Made by a program: the position numbers and the translations under genes. Shown one piece after another: positions 30,067 through 41,377 of a stretch of 64,000 nt of DNA. The stretch spans positions 1 through 64,000 of the forward strand of contig NZ_JAFEUV020000007.1 of assembly GCF_017355915.2 (NCBI RefSeq). The letters are read 5' to 3'. The stretch's first letter is position 1; each line of letters opens with the position of its first letter. The notes under the pieces were generated by a model. The model saw only the letters and a list, made by a program, of their open reading frames with translations, did not search any database and was not told where the DNA came from. The DNA comes from Telluribacter roseus (GTDB taxonomy: Bacteria > Bacteroidota > Bacteroidia > Cytophagales > Spirosomataceae).

Positions 30067-33000
30067 ATGTCTAAACATTTATTCTCCCTTCTTATCAGGT
30101 ACTGCCTGTGCTTGCTGTTCATGCTCACAAGTTTTTCCTTTAACACCAGCGCTCAGTACACCATCAACACCTACGCTGGTACTGGAACTAATGGCTTCAG
30201 CGGTGATGGAGAAGCTGCTACGGCAGCTATGATAAGTAACATTCAAGGAGTAGCCGTAGATGGAGCCGGTAACCTCTACCTTGCTGATCAAGGAAACAAC
30301 CGCATTCGCAAAGTGAGTACCAGTGGCATCATCACCACTATAGCGGGTACTGGAACTTATAGCTACAGCGGTGATGGAGGACCTGCTACGGAAGCTACGA
30401 TACGTGAGCCTCAGGGAATAGCGGTAGATGGAGCCGGTAACCTCTACTTTGCTGATGGTGGTACTCGCATCCGCAAGGTAAGTACCAGTGGCATCATCAC
30501 CACGGTAGCCGGTAGTGAATTTAATGGCTGCAGCGTTGATGGGACATATTCTACGGAAGCTATGCTTAACCCTGTTGGAGTAACGGTAGATGGAGCCGGT
30601 AACCTCTACATTGCCAGTCATAGTTGTAGTCGCATCAGCAAAGTGAGTGCCGATGGCATCATCACCACAGTAGCGGGTAATGGAAATATAGGCTACAGCG
30701 GTGATGGGGGACCTGCTACGGAAGCTATGCTAAGTAACGTTCATGGAGTAACGGTAGATGGAGCCGGTAACCTCTACATTGTTGATGGCACTCGCATTCG
30801 CAAAGTAAGTACTAGTGGCATTATTACTACCATAGCGGGTAATGGAACTAATGGCTACAGCGGTGATGGAGGACCTGCTACTGAAGCTATGATAGGTTAT
30901 GCTTATGGAATAGCAGTAGATGGAGCCGGTAACCTCTACATTTCTGATCAAGGTATTTATCGCATTCGCAAAGTGAGTACCAGTGGCATCATCACCACCA
31001 TAGCGGGTACTGGAAATATAGGCTACAGCGGTGATGGGGGACCTGCTACGGAAGCTACGATAGGTCAGTCTGCTGGATTAGCGGTAGATGGAGCCGGTAA
31101 CCTCTACCTTTCTGATGCTAGTAATCGGCGTATTCGCAAAATAACTCCGACTTTAGTGCCAACTATTACGTTAGCCACGCTTCCCGCCGTTTGCCAGGGA
31201 GCTACTTCCTTTCAGATCCCCTATACAGCAACTACTAATGATCCTAACCAGTATACTGTTACAGGGCTTGGGGTTAACGCCAATCAAACGGGTAGCCTTC
31301 CTGGTACTTCAGGTACGATCACGGTCAGCATTGATCCTGCAACCTTCACCGGCAGCTTCTCGCTGGTAGTTACTAACACTACTACCAATACTTCATCCAC
31401 CCCCATTAGCGGTACGGTTACTATCCAGGCACCGCCAGTCATCACTACCCAGCCAGCGGCTAATTCGACGGTATGCCCGGGCGCCAGTGTCTCGGTGGGC
31501 GTAAGTGTAACCGGTACGGAACCATTCACCTACCAATGGTACAAAGACGGACAATCGTTAGGAGCAGTCCAAAGCAGCGCCACGCTCTCGCTAAACAATG
31601 TACAGGCCAGTGATACGGGTAGTTATAAGGTAGTAGTTACAGGTTGTAGCAGCGTAACAAGTACAGCCTTCATCCTGTCGGTGACCCCTGTCCATCCGGA
31701 CTACGCTGCCCTGGTGGACCTCTACAACAGCACCAACGGTGCGGGCTGGACCAACAAAACCAACTGGCTCACCGGCTGTGACCCCTGTAGCGGGGGGTGG
31801 TATGGCATCACTTGTACCAATGGACGCGTGACTCAGTTAGACCTCAACAGTAATAGCTTGCAAGGGACCTTACCCAGCAGCCTAAGTGGTTTGACTGACC
31901 TGCAACTTCTTTATCTAAATAATAACGAGTTGAGCGGCAGCCTGCCTGAGAGCTGGAGCGACTTAACCAATCTGCAACACCTTATACTGGGGCACAACCA
32001 GGTGAGTGGGAGCCTGCCTGATAGTTGGAGCGTCCTGACCAACCTTAGGAGTATCCATTTATACGATAACGAGCTGAGTGGCAGCCTGCCTAATAGTTGG
32101 AGCGTCCTGACCAACCTGAGGAGTATTCATTTATCCAATAACGAGTTGAGCGGCAGCCTACCTGATAGCTGGAGCGCTTTAACTAATTTGAGAATTCTTG
32201 ATATAAGTGGTAACCCGTTAAACGGCAGCCTACCTGATAGCTGGAGCGCTTTGACCAAATTGCATCAGCTTTTGCTGAGCTCCAGCCAGTTGAGCGGCAG
32301 CCTGCCTGAAAGTTGGAGTGCTTTGACTAACCTGCAAACGCTTTATCTGCAAAACAACCAGTTGAGTGGCATTTTGCCTGCGAGTTGGAGCAATTTAATT
32401 AACCTTCAATACATTCGCTTGGACAACAACCAGCTAACAGGCTGCTTACCAAAATCTTATAAGTCATTCTGTGGTAGGGAAGAGGTAAGTTTTACAGGCA
32501 ATATAGGCCTGCCAGATGGTGGTGATTTCAACGCCTTCTGTAGCAACGGCACTGGCCAATGTCCTCCTTCTATAGCTGTTAGCTTGTCTGACAGCAGTTC
32601 GGCTGTCTGTACCAGCGGCACCGTTAGGGTGAGTGCTACTGTATCTGGAACGGTGAGTACCACCACCTATCAATGGTACAAAGATGGGCAGTCGTTAGGA
32701 GCAGTCCAAAGCAGCGCCACACTCTTGCTGACTAATGTGCAGGCCAGCGATGCAGGTAGCTACTCGGTGGTGATTACAGAGGGCAATAACAGCGTGACAA
32801 GTACCGCTTTCAGCCTTACAGTGCCCCCTTCTCATCCGGACTATGCTGTCCTGGTAGACCTCTACAACAGCACTAACGGCGCAGGCTGGACCAACAAGAC
32901 CAATTGGCTTAACGGTTGTGATCCCTGTAGCGGAGGCTGGTATGGCGTTACTTGCACCAACGGACGCGTAACATCTATTAATCTGTCCAATAATGGCTTA

Positions 33001-36000
33001 AAAGGCAACTTGACCAGCAGCCTGAGTTCGTTGACTAACCTGAATTTTCTTGATTTACACAACAATCAGTTGAGCGGAAGCTTACCGGAAAGTTGGGGTA
33101 CATTGACTAACCTGCAATATCTTTATCTGCACAACAACCAGTTGAGTGGCAGCCTGCCTGAGAGTTGGAGTGGCTTGACCAATCTGCGGTATCTTTATCT
33201 GCCAAACAACCAGTTGAGCGGCAGCCTACCTCAGAATTGGAGTGGCTTGACTAACCTGCAATATCTTGCTCTGTATTTCAATCAATTGAGCGGCAGCCTG
33301 CCTCAGAGTTGGAGTGCCTTGACAAATTTGCAAAGTCTTCAGCTATACAGCAATCAGTTGAGCGGCAGCTTGCCCGAGAGCTGGAGTGCCTTAACCAACC
33401 TGCAAGAGCTTTCTCTGCATACCAACCAGTTGAGTGGCAACTTACCTGAGAGTTGGAGCGCCTTGCCTAACCTGCAAGGGCTTTATCTGCAAAACAACCA
33501 ATTGAGTGGCAATCTTCCTGAAAGTTGGAGTAACCTGACCAGCCTGCGACAGCTTAATTTAAGGAGCAACCAGTTAAGCGGTAGTCTATCAGCAAGTTGG
33601 GATGCGCTGACCAACCTGCGAATTCTTTTGCTAGATAATAATCAATTAAGTGGCAACCTACCGGCGAGTTGGAAAGCTCTGACGAACCTAGAAGTGCTTT
33701 ATTTATATGGTAACCAATTGAGCGGCTGCTTTCCGGCTTCGTATTCTGTATTCTGCGGAAAGAACGTAATCTTTACTAGTAATGCAGGCTTGCCAGGTGG
33801 TGGTGATTTCAGCGCCTTCTGTAGCAACGGTACCGGCCAGTGTCTTGATCTATCCGTTAGCCTCTCCACCAACAGTTCGGCTGTCTGTATCGGCAGCACC
33901 GTTACGGTGAGTGCCAGTGCGACTGGAACGGCGGGTACACCCACTTACCAGTGGTACAAAGATGGGCAGTCATTAGGAGCAGCTCAAAGCAGCGCCATGC
34001 TATCGCTGACTAACGTGCAGGCCAGTGATGCAGGCAGCTATACGGTGGTGGTTACGGAGGGTAGCAATAGCGTTACAAGTACCGCTTTCAGCCTTACAGT
34101 GGACAAACAGCTCGTGGTCAGTATTAGCCCTAACCCAGCTGAGCTGAGCTGTACCAACCCATCTCTAACCCTGACGGCCACTGTAGTCAATGGCGCTTCC
34201 TACAGCTTCACTGGTCCGGGTGTTACAGTGTCAAGCCCTTCAAGCAATACGGCTACCATAAATAAGCCTGGTACCTATACGGTCACGGTGACTACCTTGA
34301 TGGGCTGTAAGGCAGAGGGTGAGCTAACAGTCAAAGAAGCTATCACTACCACCTTCTACGCTGACGCAGACAAGGATGGTTTTGGTGACGCAGCTATTAC
34401 GATACAGGCATGTACTGCCCCGGTGGGTTATGTCACACTGGCTGGCGACTGCAACGACAGTGATAACAAGATCTACCCGGGAGCGCCTGAATTGTCGGAT
34501 GGAAAGGACAACGACTGTGATGGCCAAACCGATGAAGATACCCCTGTAACTTCCCAGCAGGTAGTAAGTTTCACGTTGATTAACGCCGATAACGAGCAGC
34601 CTATCCGGGAGCTGGTCCCTGATGATGTGCTGGATCTGTACAGCCTGCCTACACGTAACCTGAACATTAGGGCCAACACCAGTCCTTCTCCTGTGGGTAG
34701 TGTGAAGTTTGTGCTCAGCGGCAAGCAGAGCAGAATACAGACCGAGACAGGCTTCCCTTACGCGCTCTTCGGCGATGACAGTGGTAACTATCGCAACTGG
34801 ACACCAGCAGCGGGCAGCTATAGCCTGATAGGTACTCCTTATACCGAAGGAAGTGCCAAAGGTACAGCCGGCACCCCCTTAACTATCAGCTTCACCGTTG
34901 TGGAGCAAGCAGCTCCGATAAATCAAGTGCCTACGGCTAACGCAGGAAATGATCAGACGATCACGCTGCCCACCAATAGTGTTATCCTGGCTGGTTCAGC
35001 CCATGATCCTGACGGAAGTATCACCTCTCACCAATGGAGCCAGCAGATCGGACCAGGCGCAGCCACCCTGGTTAATGCTAACACAGCAACGCTAACGGCG
35101 AATAATTTACTAGCAGGCACCTATGTCTTCCGTCTAACGGCGACAGATAATCAGGGAGCCACTAAGTTTGATGAAGCCACTGTAACGGTCAACCCTGCGC
35201 CTGCCCCCACTACTCAGCAGGTGGTAAGCTTTACGCTGATGAATGCGGATAATGAGCAGCCCATACGTGATATAGCCCCCAATGATGTACTGGATCTGAA
35301 CAGCCTGCCCACGCGTAACCTGAACATCCGGACTAACACCAATCCTTCACGCGTAGGTAGCGTCAAGTTCGTCATGAGTGGTAAGCTCAGCCGTACACAG
35401 ACGGAGACAGGCTTCCCCTATGCCTTGTTCGGAGACAATGGAGGCAACTACAACACCTGGACACCTGCTGTGGGCAGTTACAGTCTGACGTGTACGCCTT
35501 ACACAGGATCCGGAGCAACGGGTACAGCTGGAACTCCATTGACTATTAGCTTTACCGTAGTAGAGCAGACTACTCCTACTAACCAGACGCCTACGGTTAA
35601 TGCAGGAGCGGATAAGACCATCACGCTGCCTACCAACAGCGTTACCCTTACTGGCTCGGCCAGTGATCCGGATGGTAGCATCAGCAGTTATGGCTGGACC
35701 CAGCAGAGCGGACCAGGTACGGCCTCTTTGGTTAACGCCAGCACCCCTACATTGACAGCGAATAATCTGGTCGCCGGTACCTATGTCTTCCGCCTGACGG
35801 TCACCGACAACCAGGGAGCTACCGTATTCGATGAAGCTTCTGTCACGGTCAATCCCGCGCCTTCAACTACTCAACAGGTGGTAAGCTTCACGCTGATGAA
35901 TGCGGATAATGAGCAACCCATCCGGGACATCAACCCTAATGAGGTCATAGATCTGGCCGCACTACCGACTCGTAATCTAAACATACGAGCTAACACCAGT

Positions 36001-36513
36001 CCTTCACCCGTAGGCAGCGTGAAGTTTGTCATGAGCGGCAAGCAGAGCCGGACCCAGACGGAGACAGGCTTCCCCTATGCCTTGTTCGGAGACAATGGAG
36101 GCAACTACAACACCTGGACACCCGCTTTGGGAAGTTACACCTTAAAGGCTACTCCTTATACTCAAGCAGGGGCCACGGGTACTGCCGGAACCACGCTAAG
36201 TATTAGCTTCACGGTAGTGGATCAGTCCATGGCTCGTCTGGCTGTGGAAGAAAAAGTGGAAACAGAAGCCTTACAGGTCCTGTACTTTCCTAATCCGTTC
36301 ACTGAATCCTTCGCTCTTAAGGTACAGGGAAAAGGGCAGGGTAAGCTACCTGTTGCAGTCTTCGATATTCTAGGTCGCACAGTACTCCAGCTGGAAGATG
36401 TACAGCCCGAGCAGAGCATCAGCCTGGGCCGGGAAGCAAAGCCCGGAATGTACTTCCTGCAGGTCGGCACAGGACATAAAGCCAAACACTACAAGTTGAT
36501 CAAAGTACAGTAG
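30067..36513 (+). CDS. Giant NHL/Ig/LRR/MopE/PKD surface protein with T9SS sorting domain
   Basis: This 2148-residue protein has a signal peptide ('LTSFSFNTSAQ'), about six NHL repeats (30-360), an Ig-like region, a first LRR block (about 541-830) opening with the cap 'LVDLYNSTNGAGWTNKTNWL', an Ig-like domain, a second LRR block (about 923-1254), and further Ig-like domains. A MopE-type metal-binding motif follows ('FYADADKDGFGD', 'DCNDSDNKIYPGAPE', 'DGKDNDCDG', about 1428-1488), then three 'QQVVSFTL' modules alternating with two PKD-like domains, and a T9SS sorting domain (about 2060-2148). All parts are extracellular binding or structural modules, so an adhesin or glycan-binding role is likely; no catalytic domain is seen. 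An operator-like palindrome and promoter element lie upstream. Confidence 0.9.
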   Translation: MSKHLFSLLIRYCLCLLFMLTSFSFNTSAQYTINTYAGTGTNGFSGDGEAATAAMISNIQGVAVDGAGNLYLADQGNNRIRKVSTSGIITTIAGTGTYSYSGDGGPATEATIREPQGIAVDGAGNLYFADGGTRIRKVSTSGIITTVAGSEFNGCSVDGTYSTEAMLNPVGVTVDGAGNLYIASHSCSRISKVSADGIITTVAGNGNIGYSGDGGPATEAMLSNVHGVTVDGAGNLYIVDGTRIRKVSTSGIITTIAGNGTNGYSGDGGPATEAMIGYAYGIAVDGAGNLYISDQGIYRIRKVSTSGIITTIAGTGNIGYSGDGGPATEATIGQSAGLAVDGAGNLYLSDASNRRIRKITPTLVPTITLATLPAVCQGATSFQIPYTATTNDPNQYTVTGLGVNANQTGSLPGTSGTITVSIDPATFTGSFSLVVTNTTTNTSSTPISGTVTIQAPPVITTQPAANSTVCPGASVSVGVSVTGTEPFTYQWYKDGQSLGAVQSSATLSLNNVQASDTGSYKVVVTGCSSVTSTAFILSVTPVHPDYAALVDLYNSTNGAGWTNKTNWLTGCDPCSGGWYGITCTNGRVTQLDLNSNSLQGTLPSSLSGLTDLQLLYLNNNELSGSLPESWSDLTNLQHLILGHNQVSGSLPDSWSVLTNLRSIHLYDNELSGSLPNSWSVLTNLRSIHLSNNELSGSLPDSWSALTNLRILDISGNPLNGSLPDSWSALTKLHQLLLSSSQLSGSLPESWSALTNLQTLYLQNNQLSGILPASWSNLINLQYIRLDNNQLTGCLPKSYKSFCGREEVSFTGNIGLPDGGDFNAFCSNGTGQCPPSIAVSLSDSSSAVCTSGTVRVSATVSGTVSTTTYQWYKDGQSLGAVQSSATLLLTNVQASDAGSYSVVITEGNNSVTSTAFSLTVPPSHPDYAVLVDLYNSTNGAGWTNKTNWLNGCDPCSGGWYGVTCTNGRVTSINLSNNGLKGNLTSSLSSLTNLNFLDLHNNQLSGSLPESWGTLTNLQYLYLHNNQLSGSLPESWSGLTNLRYLYLPNNQLSGSLPQNWSGLTNLQYLALYFNQLSGSLPQSWSALTNLQSLQLYSNQLSGSLPESWSALTNLQELSLHTNQLSGNLPESWSALPNLQGLYLQNNQLSGNLPESWSNLTSLRQLNLRSNQLSGSLSASWDALTNLRILLLDNNQLSGNLPASWKALTNLEVLYLYGNQLSGCFPASYSVFCGKNVIFTSNAGLPGGGDFSAFCSNGTGQCLDLSVSLSTNSSAVCIGSTVTVSASATGTAGTPTYQWYKDGQSLGAAQSSAMLSLTNVQASDAGSYTVVVTEGSNSVTSTAFSLTVDKQLVVSISPNPAELSCTNPSLTLTATVVNGASYSFTGPGVTVSSPSSNTATINKPGTYTVTVTTLMGCKAEGELTVKEAITTTFYADADKDGFGDAAITIQACTAPVGYVTLAGDCNDSDNKIYPGAPELSDGKDNDCDGQTDEDTPVTSQQVVSFTLINADNEQPIRELVPDDVLDLYSLPTRNLNIRANTSPSPVGSVKFVLSGKQSRIQTETGFPYALFGDDSGNYRNWTPAAGSYSLIGTPYTEGSAKGTAGTPLTISFTVVEQAAPINQVPTANAGNDQTITLPTNSVILAGSAHDPDGSITSHQWSQQIGPGAATLVNANTATLTANNLLAGTYVFRLTATDNQGATKFDEATVTVNPAPAPTTQQVVSFTLMNADNEQPIRDIAPNDVLDLNSLPTRNLNIRTNTNPSRVGSVKFVMSGKLSRTQTETGFPYALFGDNGGNYNTWTPAVGSYSLTCTPYTGSGATGTAGTPLTISFTVVEQTTPTNQTPTVNAGADKTITLPTNSVTLTGSASDPDGSISSYGWTQQSGPGTASLVNASTPTLTANNLVAGTYVFRLTVTDNQGATVFDEASVTVNPAPSTTQQVVSFTLMNADNEQPIRDINPNEVIDLAALPTRNLNIRANTSPSPVGSVKFVMSGKQSRTQTETGFPYALFGDNGGNYNTWTPALGSYTLKATPYTQAGATGTAGTTLSISFTVVDQSMARLAVEEKVETEALQVLYFPNPFTESFALKVQGKGQGKLPVAVFDILGRTVLQLEDVQPEQSISLGREAKPGMYFLQVGTGHKAKHYKLIKVQ

Positions 36514-37633: not shown

Positions 37634-38814
37634 CTACTTCTTCCGGTAGTGAGAGTTAGCAAATTCAATAAAATTAGCCCAATCGTACTTTGTAAGGTCA
37701 TGAATTCCTTCCCGGTTGTGGTATCCCATAGGGGGAGCGTTAACAGGCGTATTTATGGCAGGAGGACTACCGGGCAGGGCTGAGTCCAACCCAAATAAGC
37801 TATACACTGGTTCCGCTTCTTTCAGTGCCAGAAAAGTACCCGTCGGATCGGCCCACAAGTCTTTGGATGCATTGGTCACATATACCGGACGGGGAGCTAC
37901 CCGTTGATCAGCATATGCTGATCAACGGGTAAGGCGTTCTCGTTGTTATTATACTTCTTATAGTTTGTAGTAAACCAGTGGGGAAAAAAGGTATTGATCC
38001 GTTTGACGCTCTCGCCAAAGTTACGGCGTGATAGGGAAGCTCCCGTATTTCCTGAGCAGTTAGAGGCACAGAGGGCAAACCGCTGGTCCTGTGCCGCAGC
38101 CTACAGCGAAACTTTACCCCCGCGGGAATGCCCTACTACGGCTACCTTTTTGGCATCTATATCTTAATCCTTCTCAAAATATTCCATTACACGGCTGGCT
38201 CCCCAGGCCCAAGCGCCGATGGCTTTCATCCCATTTTCTGCTCCGATCTGCTCCGGGTATAACTGCAGTACTCCATTCTGGTAGGTGTTCTTATTATCAG
38301 GTGCCAGATCACTATTATAAAATGCAGCTACCGCGTAGCCTGCATCTATGACTAACTCGGCTGGCCAGAATTCTCTTAGGGTATCGCGGGTAGGGGCCGT
38401 GTTACGCCTACTGCGGTTGTTGACCAGCAGAAACGCTGGCACCGGCCCCTTCGCATTAGTAGGTACAAACAAGACCACATTAATCCTGACGGGCTTGCTG
38501 TTATTATACACGGTCAGCTCTACTTCTTTCAGGTGGTCTTTGCCATTCATGGCCTGTTTGTTCTCGTTTTTGATGGTGTACTCCAGACGGTCGTACTTTT
38601 TAGGAAACTGCCCATATACATGCTCCTCAAAAAGGCGGAGTATTTCGGGTCTTCTGGCTTGTTCCCACTCTCTCTTTGTGGTAATCTTCTTTCCACTCGC
38701 GGTGGTAAGGACGTCGGGCAGCGTGTACTTACCTACTTTGGATTCATCGTAGTTTTGGGCGTGCAAAAACGGTATAAAAAGGAAGGTGGCTAGAAGCAGG
38801 ATAATTGGTTTCAT
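37634..38814 (-). pseudogene. CE15-type glucuronoyl/acetylxylan esterase, multiply broken
   Basis: Read through its lesions, the gene has a signal peptide ('LLLATFLFIPFLHAQ'), the N-terminal 'LPDVLTTASGKKITTKREWE' motif, a catalytic-Ser region 'VAVVGHSRGGK', '[15 protein letters not shown]' and the His region 'HNREGIHDLTKYDW'. This is a carbohydrate esterase of the CE15/acetylxylan esterase group, which cleaves lignin-glucuronoxylan or similar esters. Damage seen: TAA at 38166-38164 (after 'YFEKD'), TAG at 38103-38101 (where 'SLWAAA' is expected) and a frameshift at a 34-bp palindrome (37898-37931). The start at 38814 is chosen over 38832 because it begins the signal peptide directly. The gene is inactive. 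Confidence 0.85.
37898..37931. repeat. 34-bp perfect palindrome inside the esterase pseudogene
   Basis: The half TACCCGTTGATCAGCAT is followed directly by its exact reverse complement, with no spacer. The left-hand copy in coding sense encodes 'LPVDQHM', expected in the esterase; the other copy replaces a few codons and shifts the frame. This looks like an inverted copy templated from the neighbouring sequence. Confidence 0.9.
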
Positions 38815-38852
38815 ACAGTTAGTTTTAAGCATTTAGAGGCTCTCAGGCTGAG

Positions 38853-39072
38853 CTATTTTATAATGTTCTTAGTCCATTGCAGTACGGAGTTTCTTATATC
38901 ATGGGAGAATCGGTTATAGTCATCAGGAGTTAGAAGCTGTATGTTAGATTCTGCCTTATAAAGCTGATAGACTTTTATTGTCTCCAGTACGCCCTTCTGA
39001 ACATCCGGAAGCGTAGCCGCTCTGTCTCTTTGCGGGGCTACTATGAGAAGGGGCCGGGGAGCAAAGAAGAGC
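38853..39072 (-). pseudogene. Alpha/beta-hydrolase, C-terminal fragment
   Basis: The minus-strand frame ends at the TAG at 38855-38853 and reads 'KLFFAPRPLLIVAPQRD', then 'LPDVQKGVLETIKVYQLY' and 'SHDIRNSVLQWTKNIIK'. It is the end of a dienelactone-hydrolase or acetylxylan-esterase-like protein ('APRPLLIVaxxxD' carries the catalytic Asp region, 'H' the last triad residue). A stop and unrelated sequence precede it. It stands just upstream of the esterase pseudogene on the same strand and may be part of the same lost carbohydrate locus. Confidence 0.6.
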
Positions 39073-39402
39073 TTTGCCTATTTCCTAAACTCCTACATTG
39101 AGCTTTTACAGAAAAAGAAAAATGAAGTAGCCTCTGAGCTTGCTATTCATAAAACCAAGCTAAGTCAGTTACTCTTTGATCATCGTGACCCCTCGGAAGA
39201 AATATTTATTCGTTAAGAACTTCACTCAAACAGGTTTATACCTGCTCACTACTGGTTTCGCCTTTCTATGAAAAAGCAGGAGCATGTCCTTATGACCAAC
39301 AGCTCATTGAGGAACCGGGAGAGTGCACATGTAAAAGCAGGTATAGATCTAGCGTTAAAGCTAACCAGGAAAGGAAGGGCATATAGCCCCCCCTTTCCCT
39401 AA
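39070..39402 (+). pseudogene. HTH (XRE/HigA-like) antitoxin fragment with internal stop
   Basis: The plus-strand frame from about 39070 reads 'FAYFLNSYIELLQKKKNEVA', an HTH-like 'SELAIHKTKLSQLL', 'HRDPSEEIFIR', then TAA (39214-39216), and resumes in the same frame with 'ELHSNRFIPAHYWFRLSMKK' and 'HVKAGIDLALKLTRK'. This resembles XRE-type antitoxin-like regulators in Bacteroidota. The stop probably replaces Leu (TTA to TAA). The 5' end abuts the oppositely oriented hydrolase fragment, so a rearrangement joined them. No toxin gene is seen. Confidence 0.55.
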
Positions 39403-39453
39403 ACCAAGAGCTAGGAAGTTTAGCAGCCTTTCAAAAGAATGACAGGATAACAA

Positions 39454-40305
39454 TCAACGTTGTCTCCGCCGTTTTACTTCCTGAACCTGCCTGATGAGGA
39501 CCTGCTTCTGTTCTTGGCCCTTCTGCTGCTCTATTTGCTCTTGAGCCTGCTGCAGGCGTTCCTGCTCCTTTTTCTGAGTCTCTGCCCGCAGGATCTCCAA
39601 CCGCTGTGCTACGCGCTCCTGCTGCGTGCCATGCTGCTGAACACGGCTGTACTCAAAGCGCTCGGTCAGCGGCCGCTCGTAGTGGAACTGCCGGTCAAAC
39701 TGCTCTTCGCTCATCCGGATGAAGGCACTTCGGTCAAAGCCTCCTTTGACAGCTCCCTTCTCCGTAGCCCGATGATTGGTGGCCGGGCTCAGCTTCAAGG
39801 GGTGCTTCCGCTGGAGCTGCCCAGACTGCTGCTGAACCTTAAAGCCCTGTAGATTCTCCGTCCGGCTTACGATCACGTGTACGTGCGTCTGCGCCCCGGG
39901 CTTTTTCTTTCCCTTTTGTTCTTCTCCCAGCTGCACCGCCCGGTCCTGTCTGGTATGACTGCGTTCCCTTTCGATCTTGCCGAACCACACCAGATCCTTT
40001 CCCGCTATGCCCTTACCAAAGTTGTGGGCATAGTGGTTCATAACCTGCCGGACATACTCCCTGAGCCTGACCGGATCCTCTCCTATGTGCTTTAGCTCTG
40101 ATTGGCTGGGACTGATGATCACCTGGTAAAACTTCTCCTCCTGCCGTCCCAGATTCCGCTTGTTCTGGTCAATGGCCGGCGTCACCACAAGGGCAGGTAG
40201 CCCCTGCTGCTCCTGGCTGAACCACTGCCCCCTCTCCTGCTTCTCCAGATAGTTGACCAGTCCTTCGCAACTGCCCGCACTTCCCCCGCTTATCTTGACT
40301 ACCAT
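39454..40305 (-). CDS. mobB: MobB-type relaxase/mobilization protein
   Basis: The 283-residue protein begins 'MVVKISGGSAGSCEGLVNYL' and has a 'NFGKGIAGKDLVWFGKIERE' region, the metal-binding H-x-H pair in 'AQTHVHVIVSRT' and a long Gln/Glu-rich coiled coil at the C-terminus (about 225-283). This fits the Bacteroidota MobB/DUF5712 relaxase-like family, which nicks the transfer origin of mobilizable elements. It starts 6 bases after the stop of the BfmA gene, so the two form one unit. It depends on a conjugative element elsewhere for transfer. Confidence 0.85.
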   Translation of the reverse strand: MVVKISGGSAGSCEGLVNYLEKQERGQWFSQEQQGLPALVVTPAIDQNKRNLGRQEEKFYQVIISPSQSELKHIGEDPVRLREYVRQVMNHYAHNFGKGIAGKDLVWFGKIERERSHTRQDRAVQLGEEQKGKKKPGAQTHVHVIVSRTENLQGFKVQQQSGQLQRKHPLKLSPATNHRATEKGAVKGGFDRSAFIRMSEEQFDRQFHYERPLTERFEYSRVQQHGTQQERVAQRLEILRAETQKKEQERLQQAQEQIEQQKGQEQKQVLIRQVQEVKRRRQR

Positions 40306-40311
40306 GCGGGC

Positions 40312-40746
40312 CTAGTTCTTTTTCGGTGCGTTGGGATCAACAGGTGGCACCGGTGGCTTCGGCGGGCCGGCTAAGCCCGCCTTGAAGCGGTCGCTCAGCA
40401 GGTCAGGCCGGATCGAATTGCCAATAGCGCGCAGGTGGGCCTGCCCGATCTTCCGGGGCAGGTCTTCCTGCATCAGCGTGATCAGCACCTTGACATCATC
40501 CGACAGCGGGCGCAGGATCTTCTTTTCCTGCTCGCGGATAAAGCCGATCAGCCGCTTGTCGAGGGCTTTGATGGCATCGGTTGGATTGACAGTCTGGGGA
40601 TCACGTGGATCGGCCTGGGTTACTTTGAAATACCGGATCATGGCACCAAACAGGTCTTTGTTGGTCATACCGTAGGATTTAGCCAGCCGCTTGAATTCTT
40701 CGTACAGCTCAGGATCCACATCTACACTTTTCAGCGATCTACTCAT
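40312..40746 (-). CDS. bfmA: BfmA/BtgA-family mobilization accessory protein
   Basis: The 144-residue protein opens with a ribbon-helix-helix-like segment ('LKSVDVDPELYEEFKRLAKS', 'MTNKDLFGAMIRYFKV'), continues with a helical 'AIKALDKRLIGFIREQEKKI' region and ends in a Pro-rich tail ('GPPKPPVPPVDPNAPKKN'). It is typical of BfmA/BtgA proteins that bind at oriT and assist the relaxase. It lies directly upstream of MobB. The 730 bases upstream contain a candidate oriT hairpin and a helically phased repeat array, both plausible binding targets. Confidence 0.85.
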   Translation of the reverse strand: MSRSLKSVDVDPELYEEFKRLAKSYGMTNKDLFGAMIRYFKVTQADPRDPQTVNPTDAIKALDKRLIGFIREQEKKILRPLSDDVKVLITLMQEDLPRKIGQAHLRAIGNSIRPDLLSDRFKAGLAGPPKPPVPPVDPNAPKKN

Positions 40747-40893
40747 AATACGTACGGAAACAAAAACGGAAATTGAGCCCTCTATATCAGCCAGTTAGCA
40801 GCTATATACGGACACCTTCCATTTTATTGAATTGTTGATAGTAAATTAAGTTGTTGATAAACAGCCACTTTCAGCCCCGCAGGGCGAGCCACA

Positions 40894-40922
40894 GAACAGT
40901 CTGGCCGCAGGAAATACTGTTC
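40894..40922. other. Inverted repeat, candidate oriT core
   Basis: Arms GAACAGT and ACTGTTC surround CTGGCCGCAGGAAAT. A short hairpin with a GC-rich spacer 150 bases upstream of a BfmA/MobB pair is where a transfer origin is expected. A second small stem (GCCCCGCAGGGCG) lies just left at 40874. The nick site is not determined. Confidence 0.4.
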
Positions 40923-41125
40923 CGGCTCCTTCTTACGAATTCAGAGAAAAACGGACAGTCGCTAAGAGACGATAAAAGATGAAGCAAGGAGATCAAATTC
41001 AGCCTTAATCTCTCTGCGCCCCTATTAACTCCCTCAGTGCCAGGGCTGAAAACCTGGGGGTAAAGATACAAAGGAAAGCAATGTGAAGGTTGTTAAAAAA
41101 TAAGTTTATCTACCTAGCAACCAGG

Positions 41126-41279
41126 GTGTTAGAAACGTGTTAGTTTGTGTTACCTGCTTGTTAGCAACGTGTTATTTTGTGTTGCCGGCGTGTTACTGAT
41201 GTGTTGCTTTGTGTTGCTTTGTGTTACTGACGTAATACTTTGTGTTACTGTCGTGTTACTTTGTGTTAACAACGTGTTA
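41126..41279. repeat. Array of 15 GTGTTA-like repeats phased at one helical turn
   Basis: The hexamer GTGTTA or a close variant (GTGTTG, TTGTTA, GTAATA) starts at 41126, 41137, 41147, 41158, 41169, 41179, 41190, 41201, 41211, 41221, 41232, 41242, 41253, 41263 and 41274. Steps alternate between 10 and 11, averaging 10.57 bases, so all copies face the same side of the helix. It can also be read as a 21-bp iteron (two hexamers each). It lies 380 bases upstream of the BfmA gene. Such arrays are typical of replication iterons or plasmid centromeres; here no rep or par gene is visible. Confidence 0.85.
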
Positions 41280-41377
41280 GTCTACCAGGTAAGGAGCTGG
41301 ACCTGCTACCTTTGAGTGGACTGTGAGTTAAGTAAGAAATAAAAAACTTATCACTATGTCCAGGGAGAGAACCGGGC

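Follow-up and report, generated by a model that had tools for sequence, protein, structure and literature searches.

A helically phased GTGTTA array in a bfmA-mobB module of Telluribacter roseus and its likeness to an array ahead of a plasmid tra operon

How mobilizable elements that carry their own relaxase and oriT come to suit one helper and not another is, to our knowledge, poorly understood. The question is raised by a locus of Telluribacter roseus in which a long array of short repeats lies beside two mobilization genes: which protein would read such an array, and what would the genes next to it gain? The window, that is the whole stretch analysed, comprises bases 1-64000 of contig 7 of a genome of 43 contigs and 6.3 Mb (G000), and it was compared with the genome of a sister species (G219) and with a family set of 222 genomes, probably Spirosomataceae. 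An earlier note on this DNA had described 15 phased GTGTTA-like units and had suggested a protein that assembles along the DNA much as at a plasmid centromere, with BfmA, the product of the adjacent mobilization gene, as the proposed binder. The idea of such a protein fits the results given below; BfmA in that role fits them poorly.

The array and its mobilization module

The 15 units were confirmed at their place (Table 1). The steps between them run 11, 10, 11, 11, 10, 11, 11, 10, 10, 11, 10, 11, 10, 11, which makes 148 bp over 14 steps. Ten units read GTGTTA, four are one-base variants (TTGTTA once, GTGTTG three times), and the unit GTAATA at 41232 is two bases off. The chain score of the array was 23.5, against a best of 5.0 in 200 dinucleotide shuffles of the 64-kb window on both strands, and in a motif-free scan of the window the longest exact 5-mer chain with strict 10/11 steps had 6 members, against at most 3 in 200 shuffles. 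The pattern RTGTTRN{4,5}RTGTTRN{4,5}RTGTTR matched seven times in the whole genome, each time inside the window array, and the reversed control pattern gave no match in the whole genomes of G000 and G219. The steps often alternate, giving a 21-bp double unit, RTGTTR-NTTT-RTGTTR-NTGNC, which is clearest in the sister species. The GTGTTA strand of the window array is directed away from the oriT and the relaxase genes.

Table 1. Positions of the features discussed (window numbering unless a contig is named)
Feature	Location	Strand	Description
C-terminal gene remnant	38855..39064	-	cut at module start; intact gene (810 aa) elsewhere in G219
Whole shared module	39062..41298		89.6% identity over 2241 bp to G219:C19
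HTH (antitoxin-like) gene fragment	39062..39216	+	cut at module's left edge
mobB	39454..40305	-	283 aa, DUF5712 / MobB-like relaxase; Pfam PF18976, E 2e-75
bfmA	40312..40746	-	144 aa, BfmA/BtgA family mobilization protein; NCBIfam NF041200
oriT-like hairpin	40874..40939		inverted repeat related to GAACGGTAT...ATANCGTTC
GTGTTA-like array	41126..41279	+	15 units; steps of 10 or 11 bp with a mean of 10.57 bp
C1 array	C1:92861-92982		11 units; mean step, counted by hand, 10.55, with one position skipped

The array ends 19 bp short of the right edge of a 2.24-kb module shared with the sister species. The mobilization genes were found beside it as the earlier note had described them: MobB is a DUF5712 protein (Table 1), and the N-terminus of BfmA matches mob_BfmA_Nterm (NF041200) with 72.5 bits at a cut-off of 24. 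Against the NCBIfam model MobB_relaxase (NF041495), MobB scored 167.9 bits, under the cut-off of 200. The GAACGGTAT...ATANCGTTC inverted repeat sits upstream of bfmA on plasmids, and the related hairpin of the module, which folds better than shuffled sequences (z -2.2 and -2.7), is the probable nic region and the predicted site of BfmA/MobB. With a BfmA domain over the cut-off, an adjacent DUF5712/MobB gene and a related upstream hairpin, the block has the make-up of a BfmA/BtgA-type module except for a coupling-protein gene of its own, which is common in such modules and not universal. A search with the coupling protein (T4CP) of the plasmid relative L040 found no T4CP gene in the window or in the G219 module. 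Of the 22 sequences covered, namely the window, the G219 module and 20 relatives including the source of the query, 11 had an L040-like T4CP, a count that gives no strict rule, as some relatives are cut by contig ends and several small plasmids also have no T4CP. Among the module ORFs, no insertion or excision gene, no rep gene, no actin-like or ParA-like ATPase gene and no small HTH-like partner was recognised. The HTH gene cut at the left edge is complete (184 aa) in the G219 copy, with a weak HTH_19 match there that is under the cut-off. The stretch 37638-39064 of the window has a 72.7% match to G219:C19, at another place than the module, and this match ends at 39064. Farther to the left, the window encodes a 2148-aa protein (30067-36513), in whose gene a 168-bp unit recurs about six times and several blocks of 72-bp repeats occur.

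In G219, the module lies at a different genomic place, and over the stretch compared its flanks showed no similarity to the window on either side. The array of the G219 module has 12 units, and the alignment gap of 21 bp corresponds to exactly two units. The two copies agree at 86.5% of positions over the array and at 93.9% over the hairpin (62/66), compared with 77-82% over the remaining upstream noncoding DNA. Hexamer positions are identical at 70 of 78, against 246 of 312 in the other upstream noncoding DNA (Fisher p 0.035), and at 67 of 72 (p 0.004) without the first, misaligned unit, whose removal was a post hoc choice; the array spacers (45/55 identical) do not differ from other noncoding DNA. 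The module hexamers are conserved above the other upstream noncoding DNA, in a comparison of few sites and of repeats that can be homogenised. The dN/dS values between the two genomes (0.07 for bfmA and 0.23 for mobB) indicate that both genes are under purifying selection.

The same array type on a conjugative-plasmid contig, and the place of BfmA

All 19 RTGTTR triples of G000 and G219 fall in three arrays, the two of the modules and one on contig C1 of G219. This contig of 121.7 kb encodes Rep3, TraG, a relaxase and a NikA/MobC-like protein; inspection by eye added ParA and more genes that resemble tra genes. The RTGTTR chain of C1 scored 12.8, and none of 100 mononucleotide shuffles exceeded 3.8. 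A 21-bp profile made from the module arrays only placed its top three hits in 120 kb of C1 within the C1 array (scores 23.4, 19.5 and 18.1; the next 14.0); a single hit of the 23.4 type is within the range of shuffles (50 mononucleotide, maximum 24.0), and the three in one place are the point. The C1 array is flanked by a minus-strand tra operon, whose first gene begins about 100 bp away, and by plus-strand mobC-relaxase genes. The operon encodes, in this order, a 138-aa protein, a ParA/TraL-like ATPase, which matches Pfam CbiA and a TraL model (both under cut-off), and a 184-aa protein, followed by tra genes. As in the module, the GTGTTA strand of this array reads away from the relaxase genes.

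Two familiar kinds of repeat site were rejected for the array. Rep iterons were set aside because no rep gene was recognised among the module ORFs and the Rep gene of C1, about 15.5 kb from the array, has 21-bp repeats of its own with another sequence (C1:77177-77321); the counter-case named in the earlier note, an array of this kind beside rep on plasmids, was accordingly not seen. A type II centromere of the ParR/ParM kind was rejected because the C1 array precedes genes for a small HTH-like protein and a ParA-like ATPase, not parMR with an actin-like ATPase. A second ParA gene of C1, recognised by eye, lies about 2.3 kb from the Rep gene.

The BfmA domain gave 66 matches in 38 of the 222 family genomes, with 36 genomes over the cut-off. 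Among 30 bfmA loci examined with up to 1.5 kb of flank, several of these flanks being shortened by contig ends, only those of the window and of G219 show the GTGTTA array. A profile search of the G219 genome found no second bfmA. The plasmid relatives L038-L040 encode a BfmA with 70-76% identity in the matched part and hardly any difference at the N-terminus, and the oriT hairpin is kept (by pattern match in L038 and L039, by alignment in L040); they show no GTGTTA array, and 9-bp GTTGTACC-like repeats are found at the corresponding place. A related hairpin was detected in 9 of 18 bfmA loci searched with a strict pattern that missed others, e.g., L040. Since bfmA relatives have the hairpin without the GTGTTA array, BfmA and MobB probably act at the hairpin. 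BfmA, whose N-terminus may be a ribbon-helix-helix as the earlier note read it (a single-sequence structure prediction was poor, with pLDDT 51, and lends this reading no support), was therefore rejected as the most likely array binder. On C1, moreover, the genes next to the array encode another relaxase and, in place of BfmA, a NikA/MobC-like mobilization protein. Because this array type occurs there without bfmA, and because it tracks the small protein and the ParA-like ATPase of the tra operon, array and bfmA do not form the arrangement of their own that the earlier note had proposed; the array appears to be of a conjugative-plasmid type. Repeats of another kind, about 21 bp long and AACGAGTTTTGATCCGTGAAA-like, lie beyond the hairpin on two small bfmA plasmids, L035 (G111:C11; seen in L016) with five copies and L036 (G202:C15; seen in L009) with at least three, and are probably Rep iterons.

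Array type and the small protein-ParA cassette

The 138-aa small protein has matches in 7 of the 222 family genomes including G219, the other six being L252-L257. Phasing at 10/11 bp was found upstream of the small gene at 6 of the 7 loci (p 0.003-0.010). The seventh, L259 of G050, gave p 0.066; its RTGTTR chain was nevertheless above 200 shuffles, as was that of G152 and not that of G174 (2.3 vs. a maximum of 3.4). In G050 and G152, the units are 11 bp apart without the 10/11 alternation. The unit is TGTTR in G219, G050, G152, and G174, GCCAGTTATCT in G063 and G074, and GTACATGCATG in G054.

G054 and G063 are 96% identical in MobC, 99% in the N-terminus of the relaxase and 94% in oriT, whereas their small proteins are 38% and their ParA proteins 63% identical, and their arrays are entirely different. 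G219 compared with G050, G152, and G174 shows 22-28% identity in MobC and 31-32% in the relaxase, whereas the small proteins are 42-49% and the ParA proteins 70-75% identical, and all have TGTTR units. From these contrasts, the array type appears to track the small protein-ParA cassette and not the relaxase, MobC or oriT, on evidence that is strong but not decisive and comes from seven loci, several of them related. The small protein, the ATPase and the third operon gene vary together, so the covariation picks out the cassette and not one protein in it. The small protein is taken as the candidate array binder because it is the most variable of them and part of its sequence resembles the second half of an HTH. 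The putative recognition helix differs by array type: it reads GVQTIRTLR, GIQTIRTLR, or GIQTMRTLR in the TGTTR group, SHHTIRRIR in G063 and G074, and SVNTIRKIR in G054. We read the protein as helix-turn-helix-like; it has no family match in Pfam or NCBIfam, and the best hit of its alignment against PDB (E 0.06, a GntR-family regulator) is unconvincing. The ParA-like ATPase has no match in PDB. In G000, the small protein has no match and the sole ParA-like match (on C21) is 41% identical, so that the array of the window is now without a visible partner in the absence of the small protein.

A module and a plasmid with a common array type were found in one genome (G219). In G063 and G074, no second CCAGTTATC-type array was found apart from one stray two-mismatch match in G063, and 48 genomes of their genus gave no clear case of a shared CCAGTTATC-type array, single two-mismatch matches aside. 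In G158, a suggestive second case of array sharing was noted, in which a 41-bp piece of a bfmA-plasmid array recurs inside a mobC open frame. The contigs concerned, C15 (L040 7782-7842) and C17 (L374 5709-5749), are plasmid-like with different relaxases, and the common piece of the 9-bp GTTGTACC-type array (41 bp, 90%) lies near or in mob genes; a third match, on C5 of G158, is part of an ordinary coding frame.

Matches to the ParA-like ATPase occur in 64 of the 222 family genomes, and in 27 of the 30 best-scoring loci a small ORF lies directly upstream. At 10 of these 27 loci, 10/11-bp phasing was found with p <=0.023, and an eleventh, L268, gave 0.050 (values uncorrected for multiple tests); composition may account for the phasing at L268 and L277, both of them AT-rich. 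Arrays with a 9-bp repeat of the GTTCCA type stand at other tra operons of the family, one of them on G000 contig C21. Phased arrays ahead of such tra operons are not rare, and the repeat differs between elements; the GTTCCA-type arrays are probably a second class of the same phenomenon. Long arrays of this type occur within about 2 kb of a TraL/ParA-like ATPase gene in G000:C21 (L270 78-156), G051:C3, G053:C2, and G055:C1, and the same pairing was seen in G075:C1, G076:C31, G077:C28, G080:C1, G085:C9, G090:C13, and G092:C7; in G052 and G109, GTTCCA-type arrays have no ATPase gene listed nearby.

Short repeats of the TGTTA kind are more widespread. Triples and quadruples at 10-11 bp occur in 96 of the 222 family genomes, and 15 of 20 loci examined have 3-4 units with one mismatch allowed; L201, also among the 20, is the C1 plasmid array. 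At L208 (649-685) and L218 (2990-3027), TGTTA repeats precede genes that by eye are sensor kinase/response regulator-like, and they may be PhoB-like operators; they were set aside. An order-wide search of 390 genomes, G219 not among them, matched three, with the array in G000 only. A plasmid search with the array DNA (low-complexity filter on) returned only two 31-bp Proteus matches, one with the small protein returned none, and viral contigs gave 14 single matches, none with a long array. Outside the family, the matches listed include GTGTTA runs in unrelated genomes of Paludibacteraceae, Hydrogenedentes, Treponema, and Nitrosotalea, mostly with near-identical units, and at the 9 of these loci inspected no mob gene was seen by eye in the flanking ORFs. 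Runs of 6-19 GTGTTA-like units at 10-11 bp were recorded at L108, L109, L123, and L168 (rumen Paludibacteraceae MAG contigs, L108 and L123 from one MAG) and at L121, L156, L061, L116, and L135. A minisatellite was rejected for the window array, whose spacers are more variable than those runs of mostly near-identical units and whose module occurs in two genomes.

Proposed function and its alternatives

On balance, we lean toward reading the array as the recognition array of a helper plasmid, carried by a module that has its own relaxase and oriT. It would be the site for a small HTH-like protein encoded outside the module, by a tra-operon gene of a conjugative plasmid in the same cell; G219:C1, where the small gene is followed by the ParA/TraL-like ATPase gene, may exemplify such a helper. 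The copy on the plasmid, with the tra operon on one side and the relaxase genes on the other, would serve as a tra operator, a centromere-like loading site or both. The module has an oriT-like hairpin and bfmA-mobB but no coupling-protein gene, and it has the array on the far side of oriT, in the geometry of the plasmid. With the plasmid present, the small protein would line up along one helix face of the module array, and the ParA-like ATPase would bring the module relaxosome to the coupling protein and type IV channel of the plasmid, like VirC1/VirC2 at overdrive. In G000, without the helper protein, the module would be waiting for a C1-type plasmid or would be a relic.

A wider proposal is put forward tentatively, as possible rather than probable. 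The small HTH-like protein, the TraL/ParA-like ATPase and the 10.5-11-bp phased array may together form a "transfer centromere" of the conjugative plasmids of this family, in which the protein would line the array and the ATPase would hand the DNA over to the secretion channel. The array and its protein would then evolve as a matched cassette that can be exchanged independently of relaxase and oriT, and a mobilizable module that already has a relaxase would gain access to a given plasmid by acquiring its array.

Type I partition loci consist of a ParA-like ATPase, a small DNA-binding partner and an upstream site array, and the ATPase, the small DNA-binding candidate and the upstream array of C1 resemble them. 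The array might thus be a segregation site of the plasmid small protein-ParA pair, by which the module is stabilised or the plasmid displaced. The precedent is SGI1, in which two 31-bp repeats with 22-bp inverted repeats are bound by ParB, as reported from EMSA, with effects on stability and incompatibility (PMC10954446). However, C1 has another ParA gene near Rep, the small protein-ParA pair heads a tra operon with an ATPase that matches the conjugal TraL model (under cut-off), and a chromosomal module in which no replication gene was seen would gain little from segregation unless a circular form exists; this explanation is considered unlikely. Titration, by which the module copy of a plasmid tra operator would soak up the repressor and switch on the helper transfer genes, would agree with the closeness of the C1 array to the first tra gene and with the many units, which would titrate well. 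A decoy, however, needs no fixed place or orientation beside oriT, yet the module keeps both, and a single chromosomal copy is a weak sponge, so that titration is held to be slightly less likely again.

It is still a little more doubtful that the module is a relic excised from a plasmid transfer region, with the array as a leftover or as iterons of a lost rep gene. The partner protein is missing in G000, the left edge of the module cuts two genes, and the two small bfmA plasmids of the family have probable iterons of about 21 bp beyond the hairpin; yet the hexamers are conserved above the other upstream noncoding DNA, the copy-number gap is exactly two units, bfmA and mobB are under purifying selection, and the Rep gene of C1 has its own repeats of other sequence. 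Least likely, and in our view improbable, is that BfmA coats the array as a relaxosome accessory: it is a member of the BfmA/BtgA mobilization family (NF041200), and BtgA of pBFTM10 has been reported to bind its own oriT (PMC10865816), but bfmA relatives with nearly the same N-terminus keep the hairpin without the array, and C1 has the array without bfmA.

The borrowing of helper sites by mobilizable elements is already known. It was reported that in the pWBG749 family of Staphylococcus the helper encodes a small DNA-binding protein, SmpO, a ribbon-helix-helix protein that binds two GNNNNC sites per oriT and whose specificity decides which mobilizable plasmids are carried (PMC8136818). As described there, sites and factor change together and mobilizable elements carry the sites of the helper, as may be the case here. 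In that account, however, the whole oriT is mimicked, whereas here relaxase and oriT belong to the element itself and the array alone appears borrowed; its 12-15 units are in helical phase, and the protein proposed to bind them is HTH-like. An oriT mimic of the SmpO type was rejected for the module, which has its own relaxase and a bfmA-type hairpin. SGI1 is likewise an integrated mobilizable element with sites of a helper (IncC) protein that partners a ParA ATPase (PMC10954446), and the array type common to module and plasmid recalls that parS hijack, if the array is indeed bound. The present locus differs from SGI1, as described in that source, in its long direct-repeat array beside oriT, its small HTH-like protein and its tra-operon ATPase. 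The layout of a ParA-like ATPase, a small partner and a site beside oriT is also that of VirC1/VirC2 and overdrive of the Ti plasmid, where overdrive, next to the transfer origin, helps recruitment to the channel (PMC4949242), a function that would be comparable here. In NAH7, ParR binds oriT and ParB binds sites near tra genes, and both raise transfer (PMC12421886), so that partition-related DNA-binding proteins act at oriT/tra sites there too. The account of NAH7 drawn on here has a KorA-like ParR and an inverted-repeat parS, in contrast to the present case, with neither a phased array nor a hijack by a second element.

What seems new is that a module equipped with relaxase and oriT of its own should carry the phased tra array of a helper, of a type matched to the small protein; searches of open-licence papers did not bring up such a case. 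If the array is the key, compatibility between module and helper would be readable from sequence, by comparing array type with small-protein type, and the ParA-like proteins that head these tra operons would have a testable role. The matched natural pairs of protein and site may also serve the study of how DNA-binding specificity switches.
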